This document shows positions 4,795 to 34,143 of a DNA stretch of 64,000 nucleotides, piece by piece. The notes beneath the pieces were generated by a model. That model searched no databases. It was not told the origin of the DNA and saw only the letters and a program-made list of their open reading frames with translations. Origin of the DNA: an uncultured bacterium (GTDB lineage Bacteria; Bacillota; Clostridia; Lachnospirales; Lachnospiraceae); contig CANPIC010000002.1 of NCBI GenBank assembly GCA_947574055.1, positions 1 through 64,000 on the forward strand. Direction: 5' to 3'. The position numbers and the translations under genes are program-made. Positions within the stretch are counted from its first letter, which is position 1; each line of letters starts with the position of its first letter.

Positions 4795-4823
4795 TTGACA
4801 GAAATGGTTTGGGTTGGTATAAT
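4795..4823 (+). promoter_or_regulatory. Consensus sigma-A promoter upstream of licT
   Basis: TTGACA (4795-4800), 17 bp spacer, TATAAT (4818-4823). Confidence 0.85.
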
Positions 4824-4846
4824 GGTACCAGTTGAACAGAATGTAT

Positions 4847-4873
4847 GGATTGTTACTGGAAACAGGCAAAACC
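4847..4873 (+). promoter_or_regulatory. Ribonucleic antiterminator (RAT) for a LicT/BglG-type protein
   Basis: GGATTGTTACTGGAAACAGGCAAAACC closely resembles LicT RAT sites; 24 nt downstream of a consensus -10. Confidence 0.88.
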
Positions 4874-5952: not shown

Positions 5953-6157
5953 TAACAGCATCAGCCCGTAAGGCGCATGGATAAAAATACGGACGCAAAG
6001 CGGACGGAATTTTATCCGGTGAAGGGGCGCATGGAGGGCGGATGCGGAACAAAACAGACTAACAGCATCAGCCCGTAAGGCGCATGGATAAAAATACGGA
6101 CGCAAAGCGGACGGAATTTTATCCGGTGAAGGGGCGCATGGAGGGCGGATGCGGAAC
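5953..6157 (+). repeat. Tandem structured leader repeat upstream of crr (two identical 98 bp copies, period 107)
   Basis: Identical 98 bp at 5953-6050 and 6060-6157; each folds as GCATCAGCCC/GGGCGGATGC outer stem, GCGC/GCGC and GGATAAAA/TTTTATCC inner stems. Confidence 0.9.
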
Positions 6158-6179
6158 TATAAATAGAGAGGAGAGAGAA

Positions 6180-6665
6180 ATGGGATTTTTAAGCGGGGTT
6201 TTCAAGAAAAAAGAAGTGGAGATTGCATCTCCTGCTTCCGGCAGATGCGTCAGCATCAAAGAAGTGCCTGATCCTACCTTCAGTGAAGAGATTCTGGGAA
6301 AAGGCGTGGCAGTCAGGCCGGCGGAAGGAAAGTTTTACGCACCGGCAGACGGCAAGATCAACACACTGTTTCCCACGAAGCATGCAATCGGCATCACCAC
6401 ACCGGAAGGCGTGGAGATACTGCTGCACGTAGGGCTGGATACGGTGAATCTGAAGGGCGAACATTTCACGGCGCATGTGGAGGAAGGCGCATCTGTGAAG
6501 AAAGGGGATCTTTTGCTGGAAGCTGATCTGCAGGCAATACAGGATGCGGGTTATCAGACAATCACACCGGTTCTGGTCTGCAACACCGGAGATTTTGCCG
6601 ATGTGATTCCTGCGGCAGAAGGAGATGTGGCTCCGGGTGACAATATACTTCGAATTAAATTATAG
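6180..6665 (+). CDS. crr: PTS glucose-type IIA component
   Basis: EIASPASGRCVSIKEVPDPTFSEEILGKGVAV, ILLHVGLDTVNLKGEHF active-site region; RBS GAGAGGAGAGAG before ATG 6180. Confidence 0.94.
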   Translation: MGFLSGVFKKKEVEIASPASGRCVSIKEVPDPTFSEEILGKGVAVRPAEGKFYAPADGKINTLFPTKHAIGITTPEGVEILLHVGLDTVNLKGEHFTAHVEEGASVKKGDLLLEADLQAIQDAGYQTITPVLVCNTGDFADVIPAAEGDVAPGDNILRIKL

Positions 6666-8331: not shown

Positions 8332-8512
8332 CCGCAAGAGCGTCAGCCCAGGCAGCTGGGAAACAATCCGGTGGAAGAGGCACTGGGAGGACGAGTGCGG
8401 AACTTAAAACAGCAATCGTCAGGACAGTGCCTGGATTGGTTGACAGATGCAGCAGGCAGCTGGGAAACAATCCGGTGGAAGAGGCACTGGGAGGACGAGT
8501 GCGGAACTTAAA
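8332..8512 (+). repeat. Tandem structured leader repeat upstream of ptsH (60 bp identical core, period 104; upstream copy partial)
   Basis: Identical CAGGCAGCTGGG...GCGGAACTTAAA at 8349-8408 and 8453-8512; downstream copy folds GCAATCGTC/GACGAGTGC, AGTGCC/GGCACT, GGATTG/CAATCC. Confidence 0.88.
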
Positions 8513-8531
8513 TAAAAAGGAGAGATTAAAT

Positions 8532-8795
8532 ATGAAAACATTAGAGTATGTCATCACAGACCCGGTAGGACTGCACGCAAGACCGGCAGGTCTTTTTGTA
8601 AAAAAGGCAGCTTCCTATGAGAGCAGCATCACCGTGAAAAATATGGAAAACGGTAAGAGTGCGGATGCCAAACGTATTATGGCTGTTATGTCCCTGGGCG
8701 TAAAACAGGGCAATAAGATCGAACTGACCATGGAAGGCGGCGATGAAGAGACCGCCGAGACAGAATTGATGGCATTTCTGAAAGAAAACCTGTAA
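8532..8795 (+). CDS. ptsH: Phosphocarrier protein HPr
   Basis: VGLHARPAGLFVKKAASYESSITV and a regulatory-Ser region IMAVMSLGVKQG. Confidence 0.97.
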   Translation: MKTLEYVITDPVGLHARPAGLFVKKAASYESSITVKNMENGKSADAKRIMAVMSLGVKQGNKIELTMEGGDEETAETELMAFLKENL

Positions 8796-32842: not shown

Positions 32843-32860
32843 GAAAGACATCAACATACA

Positions 32861-32900
32861 AACAGCATCCTTTCTATCTTCGGGAAGAAAGATGCGGAAC
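32861..32900 (+). promoter_or_regulatory. Leader hairpin of the Fe-ADH gene, minimal member of the GCGGAAC leader family
   Basis: AACAGCATC-C-TTTCT-AT-cUUCGg-GA-AGAAA-GATGCGGAAC. Confidence 0.8.
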
Positions 32901-32925
32901 TTATAAGCAGGAGGTATACATAAAT

Positions 32926-34143
32926 ATGGCAAGATTTACATTACCGCGTGACCTGTACCACGGCAAAGGTGCACTGGAAGCACTGAAATCCTTTCAGGGC
33001 AAAAAGGCAATGATCTGTGTGGGTGGCGGTTCCATGAAACGGTTCGGTTTTCTGGACCGTGCAAAGGAGTATCTGCAGGAAGCCGGAATGGAAGTGGAAC
33101 TCTTTGAAGGCATCGAGCCCGATCCGTCTGTCGAGACAGTTATGAAAGGCGCCGAGGCGATGGCCAAATTTGAACCGGACTGGATTGTTGCCATGGGAGG
33201 CGGTTCTCCCATCGACGCGGCAAAAGCCATGTGGATCAAATACGAGTATCCGGAGATTACATTTGAGGATATGTGTAAAGTATTCGGTATCCCCAGCCTG
33301 AGAAAGAAAGCACATTTCTGTGCGATCTCCTCTACTTCGGGCACGGCTACCGAGGTGACGGCCTTTTCTATCATTACCGATTATCAGAAAGGGATCAAAT
33401 ATCCCATCGCTGATTTTGAGATTACGCCAGATGTGGCGATCGTTGACCCGGATCTGGCGCAGACCATGCCACAGAAGCTGGTGGCACATACCGGTATGGA
33501 TGCCATGACACATTCTGTGGAGGCCTATGTTTCCACAGCCAACTGTGATTTTACAGACCCGCTTGCGTTACATTCCATTAAGATGATTCAGAATGATCTG
33601 GTGGCTTCCTATAACGGAGATACCGAAAAACGTTCTTCCATGCACAATGCGCAGTGTCTGGCAGGTATGGCATTTTCCAATGCACTGCTGGGAATCGTTC
33701 ATTCAATGGCGCACAAGACAGGGGCCGCTTTTGCGGACTATGGCGCACATATCATACATGGAGCAGCCAATGCCATGTATCTGCCCAAGGTTATCGCTTT
33801 TAATGCCAAGGATGAGACTGCATGCAAACGTTATGGCGAGATTGCAGACTTTATGGGGCTGGGTGGAAATACTCCCGAAGAGAAGGTAGATCTGCTGATC
33901 GGCTATCTGCGGAAGATGAATGATGATCTGAATATTCCGCACTGTATCGCACATTATGGCACTGACAGCTATCCCGCAGAGCAGGGGTTTGTGCCGGAAG
34001 AGGTATTTTTGGAGAGGCTTCCCGAGATCGCAGCCAATGCGATCGGAGATGCATGTACCGGTTCCAATCCCCGCCAGCCGAGTCAGGAGGAGATGGAGAA
34101 GCTGCTGAAATGCTGCTATTATGACACAGAAGTAGATTTCTGA
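32926..34143 (+). CDS. Iron-containing alcohol dehydrogenase
   Basis: VAMGGGSPIDAAKAMWIKYEYPE, HTGMDAMTHSVEAYVS, GIVHSMAHKTGAAF metal/NAD motifs. Confidence 0.95.
   Translation: MARFTLPRDLYHGKGALEALKSFQGKKAMICVGGGSMKRFGFLDRAKEYLQEAGMEVELFEGIEPDPSVETVMKGAEAMAKFEPDWIVAMGGGSPIDAAKAMWIKYEYPEITFEDMCKVFGIPSLRKKAHFCAISSTSGTATEVTAFSIITDYQKGIKYPIADFEITPDVAIVDPDLAQTMPQKLVAHTGMDAMTHSVEAYVSTANCDFTDPLALHSIKMIQNDLVASYNGDTEKRSSMHNAQCLAGMAFSNALLGIVHSMAHKTGAAFADYGAHIIHGAANAMYLPKVIAFNAKDETACKRYGEIADFMGLGGNTPEEKVDLLIGYLRKMNDDLNIPHCIAHYGTDSYPAEQGFVPEEVFLERLPEIAANAIGDACTGSNPRQPSQEEMEKLLKCCYYDTEVDF

Follow-up and report, generated by a model that had tools for sequence, protein, structure and literature searches.

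The tandem structured elements in front of crr, in the 64,000-nt stretch of Lachnospiraceae DNA analysed here (the window), belong to a dispersed, high-copy repeat family and are not a leader specific to pts genes. We consider it probable that this is a mobile family of structured repeats of some gut Lachnospiraceae, which docks at Shine-Dalgarno (SD) sites and whose fold acts in the mRNA. At the sequence level, our comparisons document the family itself, its fold and covariation, its position and orientation, its empty sites and independent gains, and its dispersal within genomes; a cis effect on the message is likely.

The family is apparently undescribed. Rfam 15 gave no match in the window at the gathering threshold, in agreement with the first-pass annotation, which had recognised no named class. 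Only non-credible, chance-level matches appeared at E <= 10, the best having E values of 0.7-3.6 (CRISPR-DR20, Clostridiales-3). The family is not described in the papers searched, a set that excluded most subscription journals and preprints. The units define an RNA family missing from Rfam.

Repeat units in the window

The region before crr had been annotated as two identical 98-nt copies (5953-6050 and 6060-6157, period 107), and the sequence bears this out. Delimited as full units on the + strand, they span 5953..6053 (core ACAGC...GCGGAAC at 5955-6050; R2 91.2 bits) and 6060..6160 (core 6062-6157; R2 93.6 bits). The helices claimed for the second copy are exactly those of its minimum free energy (MFE) and centroid structure, at -38.2 kcal/mol against -23.0 +/- 2.9 for shuffled sequences (z = -5.2; none of 200 shuffles was equal). 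In this structure P1 pairs GCATC (6065-6069) with GATGC (6148-6152), the next helix pairs GCCC (6071-6074) with GGGC (6143-6146), and an inner helix pairs GCGC at 6080-6083 and 6134-6137. They are followed by a helix between GGATAAAA (6086-6093) and TTTTATCC (6117-6124) and by the apex CGC-AAA-GCG. The 3' linker (6158..6182, +) holds the crr SD (AGGAG, 6169-6173) and the start codon (6180-6182). This SD is probably native, judging from the resemblance of the downstream part of the linker to G001 and G006, two species in which the site is empty.

A like architecture had been noted before ptsH, and we recovered it there as one full and one internally deleted unit, both on the + strand. The deleted unit lies in the ptsI-ptsH gap (8335..8406; R2 22.9 bits, E 3e-4) and has a 60-nt repeat in common with the full unit that follows (8407..8510; R2 88.1 bits, fold z -3.3), after which come an SD (8518-8522) and the start codon (8532-8534). 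A further element on the same strand, at 32860..32903 (R2 27.2 bits, E 1.8e-5), is a mini unit made of the P1 hairpin only, with conserved ACAGC and GCGGAACT ends. It precedes an SD (AGGAGG, 32909-32914) and an ATG at 32926, and the ORF whose leader (32860-32914) contains it resembles an alcohol dehydrogenase. Elsewhere, P1-only minis are frequent 5' of full arrays (L012 3760-3801, L120 2754-2804, L121 2475-2512). This suggests that they arose by internal deletion of the hairpin.

The window also contains, 5' of the licT-like gene (4795-4873), a perfect sigma-70-type promoter (TTGACA-17-TATAAT with TG). On its 3' side are a LicT/SacY-type RAT-like sequence, GGATTGTTACTGGAAACAGGCAAAACC, and then a T-rich terminator-like stretch. 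Together these are probably the signals of a conventional antitermination mechanism by which the pts operon is autoregulated.

Fold, consensus and selection on structure

The unit is about 100 nt long and consists of AAACAGCA, an interrupted hairpin with four to five short helices, and TGCGGAACT. The hairpin has purine-rich conserved internal loops and a bulge of 8-9 nt on its 3' side. The consensus reads AAACAGCA - P1 - CC(C)G.A - P2 - P3 - TACGGACGC loop GCGGCCGGAAA - 8-9 nt bulge - GGA.GG - TGCGGAACT, and the outer ends are conserved at 93-100% at nearly all positions.

The first-pass annotation had argued from compensatory change inside the window, and the covariation extends far beyond it. 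When 23 units were aligned without reference to structure, 90.2% of the cells paired, relative to 69.9% when shuffled and 27-39% when the partners were slid. A larger alignment, A4, comprises 150 units (143 distinct) and leans towards the covariance model to which it was aligned; it gave 92.3%, with 67.0% for shuffled and 30-49% for slid partners. Its covariation score was 0.640, against 0.187 for the control, and two-sided changes were seen in 23 of the 24 pairs. G-U pairs are unusually rare in A4 for an RNA that covaries so well (about 3% of paired cells), which might reflect correction between the hairpin arms at the DNA level.

The cells that are not Watson-Crick pairs are biased by strand, with 102 G-U for 25 A-C, and the mismatches comprise 229 purine-purine and only 8 pyrimidine-pyrimidine cases. 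In 266 of 275 units the sense fold is more stable than the antisense fold. When neighbouring copies within arrays were compared, pairing survived in 54 changed pairs (33 by two-sided change, 21 via G-U) and was broken in 31; the alignment was model-fitted, and exchange between units may have raised the figure. The strand bias and the pairing kept within arrays argue for selection on the sense-strand fold, and these patterns suggest that it continued after duplication.

Copy number and position in the host genome

The assembly of the host genome, G000, has 2.85 Mb in 84 contigs and is 88% complete. A search with a single unit found 20 places. The covariance model R1, built from 23 units, raised this to some 80 units at E<=0.001, or 90 when the cut-off was relaxed to E<=0.1. 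Most arrays have one to three tandem units, and at most five. Several contigs end within units, which would follow from the repeats interrupting the assembly, and the lengths given for arrays are therefore lower bounds.

Units at different loci of G000 have a median identity of 0.59, so that much of the spread in this genome is not recent. Medians of 0.75-0.78 were obtained within G022, G208, and G197, from small samples. Dispersed near-copies are alike across the unit and divergent outside it, sometimes directly after GGAATAGGAGG; in one pair from G000 the divergence begins just past GGAACTGGAATAGGAGG.

We scored the sequence downstream of the 45 arrays of G000 that are followed by at least 150 nt. 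In 41 of these, an SD and a start codon lie in the sense orientation within 30 nt 3' of the array. The remaining four (L017, L109, L114, and L115) did not give a clean score; L017 continues into another mini or degenerate unit, and L109 and L114 apparently do so too. Across all sampled genomes 182 of 194 arrays have an SD and a start, a pooled figure that is partly pattern-selected since some loci were fetched by a pattern containing AGGAG, which leaves the G000 count as the unbiased one. The downstream genes are unrelated and include, with names read from the protein starts and not from a profile search, crr, ptsH, uppP, rsmD, rnfD, ilvD, argH, dnaG, infA, and gpsA. Upstream, a co-directional gene ends nearby in 29 of 39 arrays, which makes most units intercistronic. 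Known bacterial interspersed palindromes tend to sit where they are least harmful, for example between convergent genes. The bias in position could also come from selective loss of all other insertions, without any targeting.

These results change the reading of the element as a leader of pts genes. The host genome has about 80 units, they stand at the SDs of dozens of unrelated genes, and they are absent at crr and ptsH in sister species. The broader claim of a leader family held for a structured element in sense leader or intercistronic position; it found no support for an inherited riboswitch-like class, since the units are not orthologous between species that have them at the same gene.

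Sequestration or opening of the SD by the unit was considered and rejected. Accessibility of the SD is predicted to be 0.57 next to the unit, 0.64 next to a shuffled unit, and 0.70 when no unit is present. The unit does not raise it above the shuffled form, and neither a simple effect on translation nor a simple on/off occlusion is predicted.

Distribution among genomes

The search for homologues that had been proposed as a check, carried out with covariance-model and pattern scans, found units in other Lachnospiraceae. Among 41 genomes (G000 and its relatives), only G000 (78 units in this search), G001 (8), and G022 (94, from another genus) were positive. Within the genus of G000, eight genomes have no units and G001 has its 8, against the 78 of G000 under the same settings. 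A shallower scan of 397 genomes of the family gave eight positives including G000, i.e., 7 of the 396 others. Shallow scans, in which 10 candidates were scored per genome, found no other carrier among 398 genomes of the phylum or 391 of the order, many of the latter belonging to the same family. The same scan hit few genomes even within the family, so these negatives set only a loose bound. A pattern scan of named genomes returned at least 118 stretches, with about 40 assemblies among the matches listed. Nearly all of those listed are titled Lachnospiraceae or Clostridia, several from mice, and they include Acetatifactor muris DSM 23669. A match in Snodgrassella had no match to the model and was put down to chance.

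On a phage contig with terminase, portal, and protease-like ORFs (IMGVR_UViG_3300013414_000154), a tandem pair of units lies directly 3' of the large terminase gene (L289 3491-3703). These repeats can therefore enter phage genomes. Phage and plasmid records searched by blastn with the consensus unit gave no matches. In G001, which has hardly any other units, contig C45 starts with five non-identical units at a spacing of 114-132 nt (L134 2-602). This array could be a recent import or lie on a misbinned contig. The 507-aa neighbour of the array was considered as a mobiliser and set aside, being unlike a transposase or recombinase (judged by eye only).

Empty sites and independent gain

The gap before crr is about 35 nt long in both G001 and G006 and contains an SD but no unit; at ptsH the gap of G006 is about 20 nt, also without a unit. 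At 13 further loci (dnaG, xylB, ilvD, araA, yebC, greA, infA, uppP, rnfD, clpC-like, rsmD, gpsA, and argH), where the orthologues were located with a chimeric protein query, no unit is visible in front of the orthologues in G001, G002, and G006. Comparing filled with empty sites, the common part is the side of the SD. Between rnfC and rnfD, for example, the empty site reads AAGAAATAGGAGGTACCGTAATG and the filled one ...ATTAGGAGGAACTATAATG following two units. No clear target-site duplication was seen in the comparisons of filled and empty sites; P1 joins the unit ends.

Units in front of the same gene in two species have a median identity of 0.57 (18 comparisons), which is that of random pairs (0.57), even with protein starts 98% identical. 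As same-gene units are no more alike than random ones, while identity within genomes reaches 75-78%, the gains are independent, and by these sequence comparisons units are gained and not inherited by locus. L218 and L243 have protein starts that are 98% identical and preceding units that are only 52% identical. In such close relatives this points to separate insertions, or to fast replacement of the unit, at one and the same gene.

Proposed mobilization and alternative explanations

The high-copy dispersed copies with empty sites are what would be expected of BOX- or MITE-like elements. In the reading we favour, copying within the genome would bring a unit to new positions immediately before a strong AGGAGG-like SD, in sense orientation and often in the gap that separates an upstream stop codon from the next gene's SD. 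Local duplication would then produce one to three, and up to five, tandem copies. The mobilization itself would depend on some activity able to recognise the folded unit and to direct it to SD-like sequence. In the mRNA, the sense strand would form a hairpin platform about 10 nt 5' of the SD, which is apparently not sequestered. The fold would be kept for its activity in the message, most likely on mRNA stability or processing or on ribosome loading at the adjacent start; we favour such effects over action as a metabolite riboswitch.

In one alternative, the units would be a new class of cis-regulatory leaders, riboswitches or protein-binding leaders, that coordinate a large regulon via a ligand or a global regulator that binds RNA (CsrA, for example), with tandem units providing cooperativity. 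Their sense-only, SD-adjacent position, conserved loop nucleotides, strong covariation, and tandem copies would fit, as would the GGA motifs and the presence of CsrA in all 7 unit-bearing genomes tested. However, CsrA is equally encoded in unit-free genomes of the same genus, and it is not supported as a discriminating partner. What is expected of a riboswitch was found in part, as a covarying fold in leader position; there is no pathway or ligand linking the downstream genes, which have no common theme, and no retention at orthologous loci, with sister species lacking units there and same-gene units unrelated between species. Since no terminator or SD-sequestering alternative is evident either, we regard this explanation as unlikely.

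A role at the DNA level only is, in our judgement, quite unlikely. The units would be palindromes like those of REP/BIME, a Y1 transposase (RAYT) would move them as single-stranded hairpins, and SD adjacency would be a target preference only. This would account for the imperfect hairpin ending in CT, the dispersed and tandem copies, the patchy distribution, and a G-U frequency (3%) that is low for RNA. Yet Y1/REP transposases were found in none of three unit-rich genomes (G000, 88% complete, G022, and G305), which led us to reject a Y1/RAYT mobiliser, and the strand asymmetry and the pairing conserved within arrays point to the sense strand. A shared reverse transcriptase is not supported as mobiliser either, as none was found in the carriers G000 (88% complete), G022, and G197. 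We consider very improbable a mobile small ribozyme that cleaves itself or acts in processing as tandem units and has spread through leaders. The near-identical tandem units of about 100 nt, in which covarying stems connect conserved internal loops, would suit it, but there is no similarity to Rfam ribozymes even at E = 10, and a pseudoknot-free prediction yields one interrupted hairpin and no multi-branch core.

If the mobile SD-docking family has, as appears, a fold that is selected after insertion, it would be a natural mobile element acting as a translation leader. A bolder version, possible but in our view doubtful, is a structured RNA leader that spreads itself by homing to SDs, through which a mobile element would build and rewire a genome-wide post-transcriptional network. 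The network would include tens of genes in a genome and would have formed separately in every species. Sister species with the same operons and no units are a ready comparative system for the effects of insertion on expression.

Comparison with known systems

The unit ends, ACAGC and GCGGAAC, do not form the complementary core that we take to characterise integron attC sites. Riboswitches, including tandem ones (c-di-GMP, glycine), are also structured leader RNAs with covarying stems and conserved loops, but the units here lack a gene theme, an evident expression platform, and vertical inheritance by locus. REP/BIME elements with their RAYT are imperfect palindromes, tandem, intergenic, and of high copy number. 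REPs are far shorter, 20-40 bp (PMC3733652), whereas our units have about 100 nt, conserved internal loops, and a position 5' of starts, and several carriers have no Y1. The TAACTGA repeats of marine Beggiatoaceae occur in tandem just 5' of the start codons of unrelated genes, with a patchy distribution suggesting horizontal spread and a proposed post-transcriptional role (PMC4679880). The likeness is one of position only; these are heptamers mostly without an SD, while the units here are structured, 100 nt long, and keep the SD.

The BOX elements of Streptococcus pneumoniae are dispersed, modular, contain tandem repeats, fold if transcribed, can lie in leaders or operons, affect the expression of neighbouring genes, and were apparently once mobile (PMC3049150). 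Pneumococcal BOX, RUP, and SPRITE are over-represented between convergent genes (PMC3049150). The sequence and module layout of BOX are unlike those of our units, and no SD docking is described for BOX, whereas here nearly all units stand in sense arrays ending at an SD. In the way they work, the Lachnospiraceae units most resemble BOX-type repeats.
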